From: Spirochaetaceae bacterium
GTDB taxonomy: Bacteria > Spirochaetota > Spirochaetia > Treponematales > Treponemataceae
Reading direction: 5' to 3'
Length of the DNA: 54,445 nucleotides
NCBI GenBank assembly: GCA_017936665.1
Contig: JAGBFB010000012.1
Coordinates: 1 to 54,445 of the forward strand
Each line of letters begins with the position of its first letter. Positions within the stretch are counted from its first letter, which is position 1. The notes under the pieces are model-generated. The model ran no database searches, had not been told where the DNA came from, and saw nothing but the letters and a program-made list of their open reading frames with translations. Positions 7,900-20,719 of the stretch are shown here, in pieces. A program made the translations under genes and the position numbers.

Positions 7900-8039
7900 A
7901 TTCCGAACTTGATTCGGAATCTCTTTGAGTAGATGCTGAACCAAGTTCAGCATGACAGAGTTTTCTCTCATTCTATCTCGGAAATTGACACGCCTGCAAG
8001 TTTTGTGAAACAAAACTTGATTGTAAGCCGAAGGCTTAC
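7900..8039. repeat. Cluster of four short perfect hairpins (REP-like)
   Basis: Four perfect inverted repeats lie in a row: 7900-7920 (8-bp arms, loop CTTGA), 7933-7953 (9-bp arms, loop CAA), 7997-8019 (10-bp arms, loop GAA) and 8023-8039 (7-bp arms, loop GAA). The first shares its CTTGATTC core with the tandem repeat at 11481. The cluster fills the gap after the lipoprotein gene and could act as a transcript end or an mRNA-stabilising element. There is no coding potential here. Confidence 0.7.
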
Positions 8040-11476: not shown

Positions 11477-11480
11477 GACA

Positions 11481-11601
11481 TAATATGACAAAATAAATAG
11501 TGTCATCCTGAACTTGATTCAGGATCTGAGCTATAATATGACAAAATAAATAGTGTCATCCTGAACTTGATTCAGGATCTGAGCTATAATATGACAAAAT
11601 A
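11481..11601. repeat. 53-bp tandem direct repeat, 2.3 copies
   Basis: Exact units at 11481-11533 and 11534-11586, and a 15-base partial third copy at 11587-11601. Each unit carries TAATATGACA and the palindrome CCTGAA-CTTGA-TTCAGG, related to the hairpin at 7900. Confidence 0.92.
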
Positions 11602-11669: not shown

Positions 11670-12512
11670 TTATGTCAACTTTTCTAATGAACTTTTTAGC
11701 AAATTAATGAATTGACTTTTTAACATAGGATGAATTACTTCATTTTGTTCTTCTAAATATGACACTTCTTTGTCATATAAATCAGAGGCAAACTCCAATG
11801 TGTTTTCTATAGCTCTTTTTGAGATTGGTAATCTACTTCCAATTAACTGATTTTCTAATTCTGTAGAGCGTAATTTTATCTTTCCACAAAAGGCAACTCT
11901 TAAATCTGTTAATATATCTTTTTCAGATTGAGCAAGGAATGTATAAGAAGCACTTACATCGATAATTTCATTTACAGGTCCTAAGCGTTCAAATATTTCT
12001 AAGTCCCAATCAATAATTGGTAATCTAATTTTTGATATAACTTGTCCTGGTTTTAATTTTTCTAATTTACTTAATGAAACTAATTTTGTTTCAGAATAAT
12101 CTTTTATTTCTAATTTTGCATCAACTGCTAATAAAGGTGAATAAAGTGTGTTATAAAATTTTTCAGAGCAAATATTTCCTGTAACTGTAGCAAGATTTCT
12201 TACAAGAGGATTAGCAACTGTTTCTATTGCTTTATAAAAATAACTTGGAATTTTATTTATCCCTAAATTTAATATTTTTGTTAATGAAACTCCTGAACCA
12301 AAATCTATATATCTTTCTTTTTTGTCTATGAAACAACATTCAGGACATTGACTTAAAAATAAACTATTGTTTTCAATTTCAACAGTAAATTCTTTATTAG
12401 TCTCATAAAGAGATGTTCCCCCACCATAAATTTTTAAATTATTTACGGTTTTTAAGTAATATAATAAGTCTTGAATATTTGATGCTTTATAAAAACTAAT
12501 TTCATTTTGCAT
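11670..12512 (-). CDS. FAD-binding subunit of a molybdenum-hydroxylase-like complex (CoxM/XdhB family)
   Basis: 280 residues with the fold of the FAD subunit of xanthine dehydrogenase or CO dehydrogenase type enzymes, which passes electrons from the 2Fe-2S subunit to an acceptor. Visible are the flavin loop 'YGGGTSLYE' near the N-terminus, 'NPLVRNLATVTGNICS' (equivalent to the usual R..GTIGGN loop), and the C-terminal domain with 'FLAQSEKDILTDLRVAFCGK'. The aspartate-bearing loop after GNICS is altered ('EKFYNTLYSP'). It is the last gene of a six-gene operon, overlapping the 2Fe-2S gene by 11 bases. Substrate unknown. Confidence 0.75.
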   Translation of the reverse strand: MQNEISFYKASNIQDLLYYLKTVNNLKIYGGGTSLYETNKEFTVEIENNSLFLSQCPECCFIDKKERYIDFGSGVSLTKILNLGINKIPSYFYKAIETVANPLVRNLATVTGNICSEKFYNTLYSPLLAVDAKLEIKDYSETKLVSLSKLEKLKPGQVISKIRLPIIDWDLEIFERLGPVNEIIDVSASYTFLAQSEKDILTDLRVAFCGKIKLRSTELENQLIGSRLPISKRAIENTLEFASDLYDKEVSYLEEQNEVIHPMLKSQFINLLKSSLEKLT

Positions 12513-12990
12513 GTAGTTTATCCTTAATTCTATTTCTTCTTATTGCACAGGCTAAATAAATTCCGTTTGCAAAACTATCTAATTCTACACAATTGCATTT
12601 TAAAAAAGAAACTTCTTTTTTTATTTCTTCTCTAGTGATAAACGGATTATGTTTAATAATTTTATATGTAATAAAAATTTTGCCTGCATTGCAATAGCCA
12701 CAAAAATTTATATTCTTTTGTTTAAATGCTTTTTCTATATCAACATATTCATCTGACTTCATAAATCCTTCTAAGGTTGTAATTTGAGTTTGCTCAATTT
12801 CTGCAAGTGGAATCAAGCAACTTAATACTGGATTATTATTTAGTAAAACTGTACAAGAACCACATTTACCTTGGTTACATCCATTTTTGATAGAAAAATA
12901 ATTATTTTGTTTTAAGTATTCAGATAACTTTTTTTTAGGATTCTCATTAATTTCGATTGGATGTCCGTTTATTTCAAATTTAATTTTCAT
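12502..12990 (-). CDS. 2Fe-2S subunit of a molybdenum-hydroxylase-like complex (CoxS/XdhC family)
   Basis: 162 residues in two domains. The plant-ferredoxin-type half has cysteines 38, 43, 46 and 58 ('CNQGKCGSC' and 'LSC'). The helical half has cysteines 97 and 100 ('CGYC') and 132 and 134 ('CNC'). All eight cluster ligands of the family are therefore kept, so two 2Fe-2S centres should form. The normally conserved CRCTGY around the last pair is changed to 'CNCVELD'. The gene lies between the large and FAD subunits with short overlaps, as in functional enzymes. Confidence 0.85.
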   Translation of the reverse strand: MKIKFEINGHPIEINENPKKKLSEYLKQNNYFSIKNGCNQGKCGSCTVLLNNNPVLSCLIPLAEIEQTQITTLEGFMKSDEYVDIEKAFKQKNINFCGYCNAGKIFITYKIIKHNPFITREEIKKEVSFLKCNCVELDSFANGIYLACAIRRNRIKDKLHAK

Positions 12991-15046
12991 CTGATTTTAT
13001 TTCTCCATCTTTAGATATTTCTTCTTGCTCTTTTTTTTGCATTGCATAATAAATAGCATCTTGTAAAAGAGGTAGTGCTGGAATATCTGTATTAACCGCA
13101 ACTGATAGGGCATTTGTGATTGAAGCAGGAAGTACATTATAAACTAAATCTCCAATTTCTTTTGGTTCATCTTTGTTTTCTATAAAATAAATATGTTTTG
13201 GAATTTCATCATAAGTAATTCCTGGTATTGTTTGTACTAAAGTTTGAAAAATTGCTTTTTTTACTGAAAGTTCTGCTCTTTGTTTATTTAGGATTTCTCC
13301 TCCAGAAATTACTATCCAAATAGACAAAATTTTTGGAATATATGTACATGGATTTACTTCTATTTCTGTAACAGATGCAACCCAAGATGTACTATGAAAT
13401 GGAATTCCTGTAAAATTTGTTGCGTTCCATTTTTTATTTTTGTTAGATGCTACAGATTTTTTTACATTAATTGGTAAAGGATGTCTAAATCTTTGCTTTT
13501 GTAAAGCAGTACAACATTTTTTTAAAAGATTGGTTAAGATACTAATATTGTCTGCTGTGATATTTGGTAAAATCGGTTCAAGATTTTCTGTAGAGTTTTC
13601 ATCCATAAAAATAACATCGCGTTCAACTTTTAAGATTTCACAGATTATATCTTTCCAAATTTCAAAAATTGATTCTGGTGGAGATGGTGATTTTATAACA
13701 ACAGAACCATCTACTTCCATTGTTACTTCCATTATTAAATTATTTTCGTTTACATTTGCTCCGTAAAATCCACTTCCTTCAAAAGCACAGGATAATCCAA
13801 TTCCTTTTAGAGGTAGAATAAAATCATTTATATCGGAATTTAAATTATATACAACATGTTTGCGTATAAAATCACTTTCTTCTACAACTTTATCTAAAAG
13901 TTCGTTTAGAGGTTGAGAATCAAATACAAATGGATAATTTTTTTTATCTTTTGCATTTATATGAATATTCTTTTTACGCAATTCGTTTGGAAAAATATGT
14001 AGTTCACGGCTAATTTCATGAAACAAATTTTCTAAAGAGAAAAATGCTAAAAAATCTGTAAGGTGCAAATCCGCTGAAAGTGGTGGTTTGCTAGTTCTCT
14101 GTGCGTATGCAGTAATTGTAAAGTTTTTGTATCTATAAATTGATGACAAGGCAATAACTAATCTATCAAGAATTTCTTGTGCAAAAGGACAAAATGAACC
14201 ACAGTCAACTTGTATATCAGCGTTCATTGCTTTTATAGTTCCATCATTTTCTAAAGCAACTTTATAACTTGTGTGAACAATAATTGGTGAGTCCACATAT
14301 TCATCTTGTTCTTTTCTTGATAAAACAATTTTTACAGGTCTACCTACAACTTTAGATGCAATAGCTGTTTGACATGCTAAAAGAGATGTTCTCCAAATAC
14401 TATTTGTTGCATTGTTATCAGTTTTTGTTTTTATAATTGTAATATCTGTTTTTGCACATCCCATTACATTACAAACTCCTAATCGTAAATGATGAGGCCA
14501 CTGGGTTGGTGCGTATATCGTAAAATGTTTTTTTGAAAAATTACAAATTGCTCCTAAAGGTTCTTTGTTTTTTGTAAATTGTAATTTAGAAGCGTAACTT
14601 CGCTCAATTTTTATTTCAGAATTTGTGTATAAAAGTTCACTTTCTCCAAATGTTGTAGTTCTTGATGCAATTATATTTGTTTTATTCGCAATTACTTCGG
14701 GATTTTCTTGAGCTTCGGTATATTTAATTTCTAATTCATCAATTAGTTCATAAAGTTTTATTTTATCTTCCCCGACCAAAATTCCTATAGGTTCACCTAC
14801 GTAAGAAACTTTTTCGTATGCTAAAATTGGGGATTCAATATTATTTGTAATAATTTTATTTTCACCAACAATATCTCTTGCTGTAATTATTGTGTAATTC
14901 TCTGGTAAGTTAGGATGAGTAATTGAACGAATCGTACCACTTCCAATTGGACTTCTGATTATTACTCCATGAAAAATATCTGGTAGTGTTACATCTGTAT
15001 AATATTTTTTTTGTACTTTCGTTAGAACCTTAGTTACCTTTGCCAT
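12980..15046 (-). CDS. Large subunit of a molybdenum-hydroxylase-like complex, cofactor motifs degenerate (CoxL/XdhA family)
   Basis: 688 residues, shorter than typical (~750-800). The N-terminal hammerhead domain is clear ('YYTDVTLPDIFHGVIIRSP', 'SYVGEPIGILVGED'), and 'GRPVKIVLSRKEQDEY' marks the start of the molybdopterin-binding half. The usual cofactor motifs are missing: GGGFGGK is replaced by 'TDNNATNSI', the TN.P..GAYRG loop by 'RTSKPPLSADLHLTD', and the C-terminal GVGE glutamate loop by 'NKDEPKEIGDLV'. Either the cofactor is bound in an unusual way or the protein is not a molybdoenzyme. It overlaps the aminotransferase gene upstream by 17 bases and the 2Fe-2S gene downstream by 11. 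T. pallidum has, as I recall, a similar 'quinoline 2-oxidoreductase' gene beside sugar genes (unverified). Confidence 0.75.
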   Translation of the reverse strand: MAKVTKVLTKVQKKYYTDVTLPDIFHGVIIRSPIGSGTIRSITHPNLPENYTIITARDIVGENKIITNNIESPILAYEKVSYVGEPIGILVGEDKIKLYELIDELEIKYTEAQENPEVIANKTNIIASRTTTFGESELLYTNSEIKIERSYASKLQFTKNKEPLGAICNFSKKHFTIYAPTQWPHHLRLGVCNVMGCAKTDITIIKTKTDNNATNSIWRTSLLACQTAIASKVVGRPVKIVLSRKEQDEYVDSPIIVHTSYKVALENDGTIKAMNADIQVDCGSFCPFAQEILDRLVIALSSIYRYKNFTITAYAQRTSKPPLSADLHLTDFLAFFSLENLFHEISRELHIFPNELRKKNIHINAKDKKNYPFVFDSQPLNELLDKVVEESDFIRKHVVYNLNSDINDFILPLKGIGLSCAFEGSGFYGANVNENNLIMEVTMEVDGSVVIKSPSPPESIFEIWKDIICEILKVERDVIFMDENSTENLEPILPNITADNISILTNLLKKCCTALQKQRFRHPLPINVKKSVASNKNKKWNATNFTGIPFHSTSWVASVTEIEVNPCTYIPKILSIWIVISGGEILNKQRAELSVKKAIFQTLVQTIPGITYDEIPKHIYFIENKDEPKEIGDLVYNVLPASITNALSVAVNTDIPALPLLQDAIYYAMQKKEQEEISKDGEIKSDEN

Positions 15047-16199
15047 ATTTTATTCCTAATTCAATTACATTATCGGTTACAATTTTTATCATTTCATCTG
15101 TCATTCCTGGCCATAATGGTAAGGAAATTGTTCTTTGAAAGTGTTCTTCAGTATTTGGAAAATTAATCTCGTTAAAATCAGTTCTGTGTTTGAAAATTGA
15201 AAATTTGTAATGTGGTATAAAGTGCATTGAAATTCCAATTCCTTTATCTTGCAAAAACTGTGCAAATTCGTTTCTTGTTATAGAAATTTTTGAAAGATTT
15301 AATCCAAGTAAATACAAGTGCCAAGCGTTTCCATCTGAATCTGGAGGAAGAATGAAATAGTCGTATTTAGAAAATTCTTTATTATATTTTTCAACTATTT
15401 TTTTTCGTTGTTCTAAAAATATATCAGCTTTCTTTAATTGTTCTATTCCAATCGCTGCTAAAATATCTGGCATATTAAATTTAAAACCTGCATCAATTAC
15501 ATCATATTCCCAACTTGCTTTTTTTGATGTGTATCTATCCCAAACGGGTCTATCAATACCATGTAGTCGCATTGTAGTCATTCTTTTTGCTAATTCATCA
15601 TTGGAAGTTACAACCATTCCACCTTCTGCTGTTGTTATTGTTTTTGTTGCATAAAATGAAAAAACTCCAACGTCACCAAAAGTTCCTGCCCAGCCATCTT
15701 TGGATTTTGCTGGAAATGCGTGGGCTGAATCTTCGATTACATACACTTCATATTTTTTTGCAATAGCACAAATTTTTTCCATATTACAAATGTTTCCTGC
15801 AATGTGAACAGGAATTATTGCTTTAATAGAACTATCATTTTTTAATTTTTCTTCAATTTTTTCTGGACAGATATTATATGAATCTTTTTCTATGTCTGCA
15901 AATTCAACATCTGCACCAAGATGTAAACAAGCTGTTGCTGTTGAAATAAAAGTGTAGGGGGTTGTAAGAACTTTATCCCCAGGGCCGATTTTACAAGCTT
16001 CTAATGCAAGAATTAAGCCACTTGTTGCACTATTTACAGCTAATGCGTAAGGAACATTTAGTTTTTTTGCAAATTCTTTTTCAAATTCAAGAGCAATTTT
16101 TCCAGTTGTAAGCCATCCTGATTTTAATACATTTAATACGGCTTTTTCTTCTTCTTGCCCAATTTGAGGAATTGAAAATGGAATAAAATTTTCTGCCAT
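15030..16199 (-). CDS. DegT/DnrJ/EryC1/StrS-family sugar aminotransferase
   Basis: A 389-residue PLP enzyme that aminates nucleotide-linked 4-keto sugars. Motifs: 'IGQEEEKAVLNVLKSGWLTTG' (first 20 residues of the family start), 'ALAVNSATSGLILAL', 'VIEDSAHAFPA' with the PLP-ring aspartate, and 'FSFYATKTITTAEGGMVV' with the Schiff-base lysine. The order behind a 4,6-dehydratase suggests the pair makes a UDP- or other NDP-4-amino-4,6-dideoxy sugar, as in PseB/PseC or PglF/PglE pathways. It starts two bases after the dehydratase stop and overlaps the large-subunit gene, so it is translated in the same operon. Length is normal. Confidence 0.9.
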   Translation of the reverse strand: MAENFIPFSIPQIGQEEEKAVLNVLKSGWLTTGKIALEFEKEFAKKLNVPYALAVNSATSGLILALEACKIGPGDKVLTTPYTFISTATACLHLGADVEFADIEKDSYNICPEKIEEKLKNDSSIKAIIPVHIAGNICNMEKICAIAKKYEVYVIEDSAHAFPAKSKDGWAGTFGDVGVFSFYATKTITTAEGGMVVTSNDELAKRMTTMRLHGIDRPVWDRYTSKKASWEYDVIDAGFKFNMPDILAAIGIEQLKKADIFLEQRKKIVEKYNKEFSKYDYFILPPDSDGNAWHLYLLGLNLSKISITRNEFAQFLQDKGIGISMHFIPHYKFSIFKHRTDFNEINFPNTEEHFQRTISLPLWPGMTDEMIKIVTDNVIELGIKYGKGN

Positions 16200-16201
16200 A
16201 A

Positions 16202-17689
16202 TTATTTTGCTCCTTGATAAAATGATTTTAATGATGGAACAGAATCTACAAGAATTTCTATAAGTTTATCACGATTTCTATATAAATCTTCATAATCTTT
16301 TGTTTTAAAACAAATTGGATATAATTTGTTTATCAGTGGTTCATAACTTTCTGGAGGATTTTCTTTGTCTGATTTTAATTGCAAAATTTTATTGTATTTT
16401 GTTGGTTGGGGATCTTCTTGTTCTGTCCACAAAGGTTCTTCCATACGTTCACCTTTACGCATTCCAATGAATTGAATATCAATATCTTTGTAAGGTTCAA
16501 ATCCTGAAATTCTAATAATTTGTTCTGCAATATCTAAAATTTTTATCGGTTCTCCCATATCTAATAAATATGATATACCATTTTTTCCAACTCCACCTGT
16601 TTTTAAAACTAAAGAACAAGCTTCTGGGATAGTCATAAAAAATCTTTTAACTTCTGGGTCGGTAACAGTTAATGGACCACCAGTTTTTAGTTGTTGTGTA
16701 AATAATGGAAGAATTGAACCTCTAGAGCCAATTACATTTCCAAATCTTACAAACATATATGATTTATCAGATTTTTGTGCTTTAGCAATTTTTGATGCTT
16801 GTAAAACTAATTTTTCTGATAGCATTTTTGAAACACCGTAAACAGAAACAGGTTCTACTGCTTTATCTGTAGAAATTAAAACAAACTTTTGAACATTGTT
16901 TTCTAAACAGGCATCGAGTAAGTTTTTTGTTCCAAAAACATTATTTTCAATAGAAGCAACTGGATTTTCTTCCATAAGTGGAACATGTTTATATGCGGCA
17001 CAATGAAAAACTACATCGCATTTTAGTTGTTTCATAATGTAAAACATATAATCTCTATCTTTTAATTCTCCAATGATAGGAACAATAATTGCTTTTTCAC
17101 CAATTCCTTCTTGTTGCAAAATGCGAAGTTCTTTGTCAATTTGATAAATTGAGTTCTCTCCATGACCAAAAAGATATAATCGTTGGGCACCACCAGAAAG
17201 AAGTTGGCGTGCAAGTTCGGAACCAATTGAACCTCCAGCACCTGTAATTAAAACTCGTTTACCTCTAAGATATTTTAAACTTTCTTTAAGAGAAATTGTA
17301 ACAGGAGTTCTTCCTAAAATATCTAGTGGATCAATTTCTCTTGTTTGGATAAGGTGAGCATCTTCGTCAATAATTTGTGAAACACTTGGTAAAATTCGTA
17401 TTTTACTAAAATTTGCTTTAGATAAAAATTCATAGATTTTTTTAATTCGTTCTTTTGGAGCAGATGGAATGGCTATTATTGCTTCGTCATTATGAGAATA
17501 ATGTAAAAAAGAAGTAAAATGTTCTATAGGACCTAAAACTGGAATATCATCAATGGATTTACCTATGAGTTTTTTATCGTCATCAAGAAAAGCAATTACT
17601 TTACCAAAAATTTTTTTTTGCTTTATTTCTTTTGCAATCATTTGTCCTGCAAAACCAGCACCTATAATGAAAATTCCTTTCTCATTCAT
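16202..17689 (-). CDS. Soluble CapD/FlaA1-type nucleotide-sugar 4,6-dehydratase
   Basis: 495 residues in two Rossmann parts. Residues ~1-130 form a CoA-binding-like domain ('GIFIIGAGFAGQMIAKEI'). The catalytic SDR domain begins near residue 150 with 'LITGAGGSIGSELARQL' and carries 'STDKAVEPVSVYGVSK' with the Asp-Lys and Tyr-x3-Lys elements of 4,6-dehydratases. Large CapD/PglF/WbpM relatives start with four membrane helices; these are absent, so the enzyme should be cytoplasmic. The likely product is a UDP-4-keto-6-deoxy sugar for the aminotransferase encoded next. It lies two bases downstream of the NusG-like gene. Confidence 0.9.
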   Translation of the reverse strand: MNEKGIFIIGAGFAGQMIAKEIKQKKIFGKVIAFLDDDKKLIGKSIDDIPVLGPIEHFTSFLHYSHNDEAIIAIPSAPKERIKKIYEFLSKANFSKIRILPSVSQIIDEDAHLIQTREIDPLDILGRTPVTISLKESLKYLRGKRVLITGAGGSIGSELARQLLSGGAQRLYLFGHGENSIYQIDKELRILQQEGIGEKAIIVPIIGELKDRDYMFYIMKQLKCDVVFHCAAYKHVPLMEENPVASIENNVFGTKNLLDACLENNVQKFVLISTDKAVEPVSVYGVSKMLSEKLVLQASKIAKAQKSDKSYMFVRFGNVIGSRGSILPLFTQQLKTGGPLTVTDPEVKRFFMTIPEACSLVLKTGGVGKNGISYLLDMGEPIKILDIAEQIIRISGFEPYKDIDIQFIGMRKGERMEEPLWTEQEDPQPTKYNKILQLKSDKENPPESYEPLINKLYPICFKTKDYEDLYRNRDKLIEILVDSVPSLKSFYQGAK

Positions 17690-17691
17690 AA

Positions 17692-18213
17692 TTATTCCAA
17701 TCCTTTTATTAGTTCAAAACCTAAATCAATTAAAATACTATCATTTGCAAAGTCCATCTTTATTTTAGCACGTTTTTTCCGTTTATCAACTTTTATTATC
17801 AAACCTTCTAATCCTTTTAATGGACCTTCCACAACACAAATCCTATCATTTTCATCAAAATAAACTTGAGAAGCAGAAATATTTTGTCCAAATTTTAAGA
17901 AATGTTGTAAGATAGACAAATCTTTGCCCGTTAAAGGTGTAATTTCTTGGTTATTTTTTAGAAATCTATAAAATCCATGGATAGATTTTAATGTGTTATA
18001 AAGTTCAGTATCAATATTTTCTACTTGAATAAAAAAATATCCAGGAAAAATAGGTTTTAGTTCTTGTTTAAACAACCCACTTTTACGAATTTTTAATGAT
18101 TTTTTGGGAAATAAAAAATTTTGTTTATCTAATCTATCTTGGAGAATTTTTTTTGCTTTATCAATTATTTTTTCTTCATTACCAGTTTGTACTTGTACAG
18201 CATAATAATTCAT
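17692..18213 (-). CDS. Specialised NusG-family antiterminator (LoaP/RfaH/UpxY-like)
   Basis: 173 residues. The NGN domain starts 'YYAVQVQTGNEEKIIDKAKK' and includes 'KPIFPGYFFIQVE' and 'FYRFLKNNQEITPLT'. A C-terminal KOW domain contains 'VVEGPLKGLEGLIIKVDKR'. Paralogues of this kind bind RNA polymerase and let it read through terminators inside long polysaccharide or secondary-metabolite operons; the gene being first in such an operon, rather than beside rplK/secE, argues against it being housekeeping NusG. The start at 18213 gives the family N-terminus; codons further upstream overlap the promoter. No Shine-Dalgarno is present. Confidence 0.85.
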   Translation of the reverse strand: MNYYAVQVQTGNEEKIIDKAKKILQDRLDKQNFLFPKKSLKIRKSGLFKQELKPIFPGYFFIQVENIDTELYNTLKSIHGFYRFLKNNQEITPLTGKDLSILQHFLKFGQNISASQVYFDENDRICVVEGPLKGLEGLIIKVDKRKKRAKIKMDFANDSILIDLGFELIKGLE

Positions 18214-18220
18214 GTAAAAA

Positions 18221-18249
18221 ACTATATCATATAGAAATTCTTTCTTCAA
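18221..18249 (-). promoter_or_regulatory. sigma70 promoter of the antiterminator-led operon
   Basis: On the minus strand: TTGAAG (18249-18244), a 17-base spacer, and TATAGT (18226-18221). The expected transcript start is about 18214, one base before the ATG at 18213, which suggests a leaderless mRNA. Confidence 0.65.
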
Positions 18250-18308: not shown

Positions 18309-18782
18309 ATGAAATTTATACATAAATTTATTTTTATTATTTTACTTTTACTAGTTCCAAACTTTGTTTATGCAAAATCTGTAAATATTTTGATAAATCA
18401 AATTGACGGTATACAAGATAGCGTAAGAAATACTGTTCAACTTTTTGAAGATAGTGTAATGAATTTTCTTTTTGATGCAGGATGTATAGTTTCAAGCGAA
18501 AAAATCTGTTTAGAAAAAGATATTAGTAAAACAGTTCAAGTTGCTTTAGATGCGTCCGTAAATGGTTTTATCGATTATTTAGTTGTAATTAAAGTAAATG
18601 TAAATGCAAAAAGTGATGACTTAATAGATATAAATTGGGAAGTAATAAATGTTTCAAATTCTAAAAAAATTGGTAGTGGAAAAATGAAAGCTCCAAAACC
18701 ATATAGAGAAAAAGAAGTTAGTATCCAGCGTTTTGGAGTTGATGTTGGTTCAGAAATATATTCATGTATTAAAGGTAACTAA
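18309..18782 (+). CDS. Secreted protein of unknown function
   Basis: 157 residues. A signal peptide with basic start and long hydrophobic core ends near 'VPNFVYA-K' (cleavage about residue 22). The mature part alternates strands and helices and has two cysteines ('DAGCIVSSEKICLE') and a late one ('IYSCIKGN'), fitting a small periplasmic alpha/beta protein. Start ATG 18309 has GAAGAGG eight bases upstream. It is 14 bases before the SPOR-domain gene, so the two are probably co-transcribed and may act together in the envelope. I do not recognise the family. Confidence 0.75.
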   Translation: MKFIHKFIFIILLLLVPNFVYAKSVNILINQIDGIQDSVRNTVQLFEDSVMNFLFDAGCIVSSEKICLEKDISKTVQVALDASVNGFIDYLVVIKVNVNAKSDDLIDINWEVINVSNSKKIGSGKMKAPKPYREKEVSIQRFGVDVGSEIYSCIKGN

Positions 18783-18796
18783 TTGGGAGGAAATAT

Positions 18797-20719
18797 ATGA
18801 AAAAATCTTTGTGTTATGTATTAATTGCTTTACTAAGTTGTACAGTTTTTGCTCTTTCTGTTAATCCTTCTATGGATGGTAGAGCAGTTGTGGCAGATAA
18901 TGGTGTATTTCCACCAGGTGGTTATTATGGAAGGGCTCCTGGATATTTACCAGGGGACACTGTAATTGTTACAAATCACACTAATGGATTTTCAATTGAT
19001 GTTTTGATTTTAGGTTCTTATGACGCCTATGAAGGTATTGCAATTTTACTTTCTCCAGAAGCTGCTGAAAAATTACAAATTATAAAAGGAAAAGATGTTT
19101 ATGTAAAAGTACAAAAAAAACAACCTATTCCTTATGAAGAAGCAGTTGCTACAAGTAGAAATAAAAAAATAACTGAAAAACAAGCAATAGATACTGATAA
19201 GGATTCTAGTGTTCTTCCTGGTGAAACTGAAAAATTGATAAATGATGTTGTTTCCTCAAATAAAACAGTTACAGAAACTGAAGATGTAATTCCTTATGAA
19301 GATGTAGAATCTTTAGATGAAAATACAGAAAATCCTGAAATTGCAGAAAATACAGAAGAAGTATTGTCTGAAGTTGAAAATCCAGAAGTTGCAATTCTAG
19401 AAGAACAAGATAATGATGATAAAGATGAATTAATTCCTGAAAGTGAATCAATTATCACAGAGAATCCTGTTGCAGAAGAAATTCCAGAAGAATCTATAGA
19501 ATTGGCAGATATTGAAGAAGAAACAGAACTTTCAGAAAATGATATAATTGTTGTAGAAAATCCTGAAGAAGAAACATTAGAAGAAGTTGCATCAACTGAA
19601 GATGATATGGAAGTTGTATCTTCTGAAGAGGTTGCAAAACTAGAAGAAACTCCAGAAGAAGAAATTGTACTTGCAGAACCAGAAGAGTTTGTTGAATCAG
19701 AATTAATTAATTCTCCTGTATTTGAAGAAGTTGCAGAAGTAGAACCTAAACCAACTGAGGAAATTGTAGAAGTTGTTGAACCTGAATTTAATGAAAACCA
19801 AGTTGTTTTAGATGAACCTCAATATGAAGAATATAATGCAGAAGATGTAATTGAGTTACCTGAAAATACTGAAGTTGCAGAAAATACAGAAATTCCAGAA
19901 GAAATTCCTGTAGAAAATATTGAAGAAATTCCAGAAACAGAAATTGCTTTAGAAGACGTTTACTTAGAAGAAGATTTTTCAGATGAAGAAATTTTAATTC
20001 CGGAAGAAGAACTTGCATTAGAAGATGAAGAACCTGCAACAGAAGAAGAAATTACAGAGCCAGAAATTCTTGATACTGATGTATTAGAAGATGAACCAGA
20101 ACTTGCAATTTTAGATGATTCATTTGGTATTGATGAAGCAGAAAAATCAGTTGCTGAAAGTCCTAAAGATATTTTTAGTATGATTGTTGGCGAAAATCCA
20201 GATGAAGAAATTTTGCAAGATGTTGTTCTAGAAGAAGCTGACCCAAAATTACCTGAAGCTGATGATTTATTTGATTCAATGGATAATATGGTTGCTGATA
20301 TTATAATAGAACTTGAAGATTCAGAAACAACAGAAAATACAAAAGAAGCAGAAGCTGATCCTAATACAGAAATTGCTCAAGTGGCAGTTGCAGAAAAAAA
20401 AGAATCAGTAGTAAATAATAAAACTCCTGTTGAAGCTGATGAGTTTAAAAATACTGTTTCAAATTTTAATGATTTACCAAAGGTTAAACAGGTAAAGAGT
20501 AAAACATATTATGTGCAAATTGCAACAGTATCTAGCAAGGATTATGTAAATAATATTTATGATATACATGGTAAAAAATATCCTGTATATGTAATAAAAA
20601 ATCCATCAAGTTCAATGTATCAAGTTTTAATTGGTCCATTAAATGATGATGAATACGCTCTTGTTCTAGCAAGATTTAAGCAAACTTACAAGGATGCTTT
20701 TTTAAGAGTGTTAAAATAA
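18797..20719 (+). CDS. Secreted SPOR-domain protein with a long acidic low-complexity middle
   Basis: 640 residues in three parts. After a signal peptide (about residues 1-20, ending VFA), residues ~25-115 form a compact domain with 'APGYLPGDTVIVTNHTNGFS' resembling the double-psi barrel of RlpA-like proteins. Residues ~120-530 are almost entirely Glu/Asp/Pro/Val repeats of the kind 'PEEE' and 'EVAENTE'. Residues ~565-640 are a SPOR domain ('TYYVQIATVSSK', 'YPVYVIKNPSSSMYQVLIGP'), which binds denuded peptidoglycan at division sites. The acidic stretch probably spans the periplasm. GGGAGG precedes the start. A septal or envelope role is inferred from SPOR. Confidence 0.85.
   Translation: MKKSLCYVLIALLSCTVFALSVNPSMDGRAVVADNGVFPPGGYYGRAPGYLPGDTVIVTNHTNGFSIDVLILGSYDAYEGIAILLSPEAAEKLQIIKGKDVYVKVQKKQPIPYEEAVATSRNKKITEKQAIDTDKDSSVLPGETEKLINDVVSSNKTVTETEDVIPYEDVESLDENTENPEIAENTEEVLSEVENPEVAILEEQDNDDKDELIPESESIITENPVAEEIPEESIELADIEEETELSENDIIVVENPEEETLEEVASTEDDMEVVSSEEVAKLEETPEEEIVLAEPEEFVESELINSPVFEEVAEVEPKPTEEIVEVVEPEFNENQVVLDEPQYEEYNAEDVIELPENTEVAENTEIPEEIPVENIEEIPETEIALEDVYLEEDFSDEEILIPEEELALEDEEPATEEEITEPEILDTDVLEDEPELAILDDSFGIDEAEKSVAESPKDIFSMIVGENPDEEILQDVVLEEADPKLPEADDLFDSMDNMVADIIIELEDSETTENTKEAEADPNTEIAQVAVAEKKESVVNNKTPVEADEFKNTVSNFNDLPKVKQVKSKTYYVQIATVSSKDYVNNIYDIHGKKYPVYVIKNPSSSMYQVLIGPLNDDEYALVLARFKQTYKDAFLRVLK

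Follow-up and report, generated by a model that had tools for sequence, protein, structure and literature searches.

The window, i.e. the whole stretch of 54,445 nucleotides analysed, carries on its reverse strand an operon that begins with the gene of the antiterminator LoaP, continues with those of a PglF-like UDP-sugar dehydratase and a DegT aminotransferase, and ends with three genes of the xanthine-oxidase (XO) family, called here L (large subunit), S ([2Fe-2S] subunit) and M (FAD subunit, the last gene). Adjacent operon genes overlap or abut. In the order of transcription, the features are as follows.

17692..18213, reverse strand: LoaP antiterminator, the operon's first gene (ATG at 18213; the open reading frame extends to a TTG at 18249)
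16202..17689, reverse strand: PglF/CapD-like UDP-GlcNAc 4,6-dehydratase, by sequence match to PglF
15030..16199, reverse strand: DegT-family sugar aminotransferase, PseC/ArnB-like, with a PLP lysine aligned with ArnB
12980..15046, reverse strand: L, XO-family large subunit without the molybdenum cofactor motifs, an uninterrupted open reading frame of 688 residues
14396..14422, reverse strand: TDNNATNSI, in the place of GGxFGGK in L (by alignment; coordinates computed from residue numbers)
14054..14086, reverse strand: PPLSADLHLTD, in the place of PPxGAFRGFG in L (same basis)
13142..13171, reverse strand: DEPKEIGDLV, in the place of KGxGE in L, with Asp at the position of the catalytic Glu (same basis)
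12502..12990, reverse strand: S, [2Fe-2S] subunit of 162 residues with eight canonical Cys and one more (Fer2 and Fer2_2 domains; alignment)
11670..12512, reverse strand: M, FAD subunit of 280 residues with the loops GGGTSL and ATVTGN (FAD_binding_5)

L contains the domains of the large-subunit fold of molybdenum hydroxylases, namely Ald_Xan_dh_C (8.9e-11), MoCoBD_1 (3.1e-29) and MoCoBD_2 (1.5e-7). Its matches to solved XO-family enzymes are weak, the best being 3hrd (1.6e-13), and L, S and M all fail every NCBIfam cut-off. Profile-profile alignment of L with six canonical XOs from spirochaetes (set A3) places DNNATNS opposite GGAFGGK, PPLSADLHLTD opposite PPxGAFRGFG, and KEIGD opposite KGxGE. 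None of the cofactor-contact motifs GGxFGGK, FRGxG and GQG is present in the aligned L of the window, and the catalytic Glu of GxGE is missing, since the sequence reads IGD. An earlier note on this DNA had described an intact frame in which the usual cofactor motifs are replaced, and this description was borne out. The note had missed the operon (LoaP, the PglF-like enzyme and DegT) and the fact that the loss of motifs extends across the whole class.

The set of L-type proteins comprises 188 distinct sequences, fragments included. The pattern GG[GAS]FG[GA]K occurs in seven of them, all canonical XOs (L051-L053, L058-L060 and L128), and is absent from the other 181. The remaining motifs were counted in the 174 motif-less sequences longer than 600 residues, 50 from Treponemataceae and 124 from elsewhere. 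The Arg of FRG is retained in none of the 50 and in two of the 124, and the catalytic Glu in 8/50 and 81/124, respectively. The Arg of SR is found in 101 of the 124 and is not a common residue in Treponemataceae. As judged from these alignments, the motif change has two layers. The first is seen in the whole class, which has lost the glycine loop, the FRG Arg and GQG but often retains DGK, GxG, SR and GIGE. The second belongs to the core clade of Treponemataceae: across 33 sequences, entropy percentiles of 0.88-0.97 are reached by the first four columns of what was the glycine loop (GGAF), and 0.76 by that of the catalytic Glu; neighbouring columns (Q-I-G and the N of SN) have become newly fixed there. 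Conserved pterin contacts, in so far as sequence columns can reveal them, were not found, the old pterin-site columns being unconserved. The positions that would contact pterin and molybdenum are rewired throughout the class and released from constraint in the Treponemataceae core clade. Because SR and the catalytic Glu persist in many L proteins from outside Treponemataceae, their pocket probably still binds some ligand.

The loss of motifs has not been accompanied by a loss of constraint. L is under purifying selection: its dN/dS (Nei-Gojobori) ranges from 0.033, for the pair L002/L003 of the window's genus, to 0.312 among the 60 pairs listed of 198 (62-99% identity), a set in which some pairs are one gene present in two overlapping loci and the pair L059/L060 is canonical. 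This range, similar to those of S, M, DegT and CapD, speaks against neutral evolution of L. An AlphaFold2 model of L, built on an alignment of 58 sequences (A1), shows a complete XO large-subunit fold (pLDDT 88.7, pTM 0.90). Aligned with rat XOR by VIA-align, the model gives a Z of 37.1 and an rmsd of 3.6 over 654 residues, and its Foldseek match is 1sij (8.4e-47).

The [2Fe-2S] partner had been credited with all eight cysteines, and both ligand sets are indeed present in the S of the window, which has nine Cys, eight of them canonical. By pattern, both sets occur in 41 of 50 Treponemataceae S proteins and in 106 of 117 others; in the aligned sequences, ligands are absent in 9/50 and 7/117, with the contig-cut L135 uncounted. 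The plant-type cluster has none of its four Cys in L047/L081, is almost gone in L039, L040, L096 and L099, and is absent in a 1.14-Mb genome of T. pallidum size. The other [2Fe-2S] cluster is damaged in L064, L076, L112, L122 and L127. Both clusters have been lost in two lineages, L104 and L108, which still have the full LoaP-CapD-DegT-L-S-M operon around them (L225 and L224, respectively). On a quick unrooted tree, on which these counts depend, at least six changes are needed for the plant-type cluster and at least seven for the other one. As a separate observation, in many treponeme S proteins (L013, L017, L018 and others) CC has replaced CxC at the second cluster, which may alter the cluster geometry.

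M is a complete, XO-type FAD subunit. The T.GG glycines of its FAD loops are retained in 48-51 of 51 and 110-114 of 114 sequences and the Thr of loop 1 in 47/51 and 104/114; the loop columns rank among the most conserved of M, and the loops can be recognised in every lineage that has lost Fe-S ligands. The M of the window has TG in FAD loop 2, where most have GG. Modelled alone, M reaches a pLDDT of 93.8 and a Z of 25.9 to XO-type FAD domains, and among the 50 structural matches listed all are XO-family FAD domains or subunits and none is MurB, which does not in itself argue against a MurB-like fold.

With respect to cofactor supply, no MoaC (PF01967), MoaA or MoeA was found in the window's own genome. 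MoaC is present in 27 of 274 Treponemataceae and 119 of 394 Spirochaetia genomes. Among 40 chosen genomes, all of which carry an L homologue, MoeA_N was detected in four and the C-terminal domain of MoaA in five above the cut-off (seven at E<=0.001); MoaC, MoaA and MoeA are all missing in 33. However, two nearly complete genomes, G306 and G033, in which none of MoaC, the C-terminal domain of MoaA and MoeA_N was detected, contain canonical XO large subunits with GGxFGGK (L128 and L059, respectively), so that missing cofactor genes do not prove a missing cofactor. Diverged cofactor synthesis, salvage or early loss are possibilities for these two canonical XOs.

The genes upstream of L point to amino-sugar synthesis. 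LoaP passes its profile (NF033641, 169 bits against a cut-off of 125). The dehydratase matches the solved PglF 5bjy (3.4e-71; PglF/WlaL-like) and stays below the PseB equivalog cut-off (184 vs 408 bits), as the DegT protein does with that of PseC (367.5 vs 423.5 bits). The PLP lysine of DegT aligns with the Lys of ArnB 1mdo that has this role. The pairing of a 4,6-dehydratase with a PLP aminotransferase is that of the PglF/PglE and PseB/PseC pathways, from which the operon differs in that all equivalog cut-offs are missed and that L, S and M, rather than more sugar genes, come next. In the E1/E3 dideoxysugar system (DdhC/DdhD), a DegT-fold enzyme is encoded together with a FAD/2Fe-2S protein. 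The spirochaete operon likewise couples a DegT-fold enzyme to FAD and 2Fe-2S proteins, but its DegT retains the PLP lysine, unlike the E1-type dehydrase, and in this resembles an aminotransferase. An E1/ColD-like dehydrase, which would explain a neighbouring FAD/2Fe-2S reductase, was ruled out for the same residue.

Of the 79 loci that extend 5 kb or more upstream of L, 52 have exactly DegT-CapD-LoaP there, and one more has them with CapD in two pieces, which makes 53. At least one of LoaP, CapD and DegT is found in 72; none is found in the remaining seven (L150, L151, L178, L189, L191, L192 and L079), where L is mostly accompanied by S-M. L can thus stand locally without the sugar genes, and the link to them is not strict. 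LoaP-controlled operons are known from antibiotic and polysaccharide clusters of Firmicutes. As in these, loaP comes first in the spirochaete operon and genes of polysaccharide-type enzymes follow; unlike them, the spirochaete operon is short and its last part is a pseudo-XO. The leader, in which a UNCG-type hairpin would be expected for LoaP control, is about 0.1 kb long. No Rfam match appeared between 10000 and 21000 and no terminator-like site between 11300 and 18900, so that an RNA leader element is not supported as far as these two scans can reveal one. On LoaP-controlled operons see PMC12691694.

L/S/M shares its subunits, folds and Fe-S and FAD modules with the XO-family molybdenum hydroxylases, such as 4zoh (glyceraldehyde oxidoreductase), 3hrd (nicotinate dehydrogenase), CO dehydrogenase and xanthine dehydrogenase. 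In contrast to them, L is devoid of GGxFGGK, the FRG Arg and GQG, most Treponemataceae have no catalytic Glu, cofactor genes were not detected in the window's own genome, and the operon contains LoaP and sugar enzymes. L/S/M is therefore a relative of the known XO family that lacks the cofactor features by which this family is defined. Mostly narrow, combined queries of the open-access literature returned no description of such a complex.

When searched with L, 269 of 274 genomes of Treponemataceae gave a match, including every one of the 128 with completeness of 90% or more and contamination of 5% or less; in Spirochaetia as a whole, 349 of 394 genomes did so. These counts include some canonical XOs. 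For instance, the best match in G306 is the canonical L128, and a second, motif-less copy (L219) is also present. In the Spirochaetia search, L was not found in families such as f23, which has small genomes. The genome G031, which has a contig of 1,139,633 bp (1.14 Mb, the size of T. pallidum Nichols), retains CapD-DegT-L-S-M with a motif-less L. Of the best 80 of 245 relatives, 78 are titled as spirochaetes, the exceptions being L200 (Candidatus Fibrimonas) and L207 (bacterium), which are possibly misbinned. Outside Spirochaetia, where the phylum-level search mixes canonical and motif-less forms, eight loci were read (L211-L218); seven have GGxFGGK, L216 (891 residues) lacks the pattern, and no LoaP, CapD or DegT lies in the stretches around any of the eight. 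In the quick, unrooted tree, which has long branches, the seven canonical XOs are set apart by a branch with an SH-aLRT of 99, and L103, L112, L119 and L122 group beside them; for this reason the tree does not establish that the motif-less form arose only once. There is strong evidence that Spirochaetia as a rule possess a molybdenum-free, constrained descendant of the XO family.

The explanation that we moderately favour is that L/S/M is a molybdenum-free complex retooled around FAD, which probably serves the amino-sugar pathway of its operon. That it is free of molybdenum and constrained is strongly supported; its role in sugar metabolism is what we infer from LoaP and the amino-sugar enzymes as neighbours and from the persisting FAD site. 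L, S and M would assemble into a complex of three subunits whose ancestors were molybdenum hydroxylases of the XO family and which has given up the metal. The FAD on M would be the working cofactor, the Fe-S clusters acting as accessory carriers where they are retained, and L, no longer catalytic, would scaffold the complex or present a ligand. To judge from the operon, the complex may help to make or modify a 4-amino-6-deoxy sugar linked to UDP, perhaps through a redox step at the flavin or by handling a ligand. A fuller scenario can be offered tentatively: a three-subunit molybdenum hydroxylase might have been converted early in Spirochaetia into a core part of a LoaP-headed amino-sugar operon, in which the FAD subunit would work on an amino sugar linked to UDP, or the complex would serve as a non-redox carrier. 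The former pterin-nucleotide pocket of L would have been given up in treponemes and, in most lineages, reused for another ligand such as a nucleotide sugar.

The main rival to the FAD-centred reading is a wholly non-redox pseudoenzyme, in which L/S/M would be a scaffold or ligand sensor for the dehydratase and the aminotransferase and its Fe-S clusters and FAD would be structural. The repeated loss of Fe-S ligands from proteins that persist in their operon, as in L104/L225 and L108/L224, is what this reading would predict; the almost invariant FAD loops and the retention of both ligand sets in most lineages speak against it, and we hold it to be possible, although unlikely. An electron-transfer complex without molybdenum, as proposed by the earlier note, would have an intact 2Fe-2S to FAD relay as its very purpose. 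The eight canonical Cys and the FAD loops of the window agree with this proposal, as do the two ligand sets of most homologues. However, one cluster or both have been lost from orthologues that lie in the same operon (the plant-type one in L047/L081 and nearly so in L039, L040, L096 and L099, the other one in L064, L076, L122 and L127, with the numerous changes on the tree given above), so what they share in function cannot be a full relay, and selection does not in general preserve the whole chain from Mo through Fe-S to FAD. We consider this reading improbable as a general one, even though its components are all present in the window.

Two further explanations were weighed. L might still use molybdenum, at a site that has diverged strongly, and be supplied with cofactor by an unknown or salvage route; GIGE and SR are retained in most copies from outside Treponemataceae, and the canonical XOs of G306 and G033 exist in genomes with no detected cofactor genes. 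Against it stand the disappearance of GGxFGGK, the FRG Arg and GQG, the freedom of the molybdenum-loop columns to vary in Treponemataceae with the Glu kept in so few of them, and the own genome without MoaC, MoaA and MoeA, which together make it very improbable. The earlier suggestion that the complex might be molybdenum-free is probably right. A decaying XO remnant would account for the lost motifs, but the frames are open, dN/dS lies at 0.03-0.31, the fold is predicted with high confidence and the gene is retained across the class, the 1.14-Mb genome included. Decay was ruled out by selection, fold and distribution, leaving it hardly any probability, and the earlier judgement of retooling rather than decay agrees with this.

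L/S/M is a strong example of enzyme retooling, since the active-site metal is gone while fold, partners and operon are under selection across the class. Intermediate stages are extant, namely the class-wide rewired pocket, the abandoned pocket of treponemes and the loss of single Fe-S clusters, and across spirochaetes an old metal enzyme has, it seems, been put to a new use. Genes of this type in the syphilis spirochaete are probably annotated as molybdopterin or quinoline oxidoreductases. Our reading provides them with a testable function and suggests that they should not be counted as molybdoenzymes.

The genes flanking the operon vary between lineages. Those 3' of M in other lineages were considered as pathway members and rejected, the ones examined being housekeeping or variable (DNA polymerase III alpha, YggT, RecG, DHQ synthase and DUF1848). 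On the other side, the genes divergent from loaP (18312-20719) encode a short protein and a large acidic SPOR-domain protein, and remain by the operon in many lineages. Just 3' of the operon, positions 11480-11585 consist of two identical 53-bp tandem copies with the palindrome ATCCTGAACTTGATTCAGGAT, of which a third, diverged copy lies at 7932-7957.
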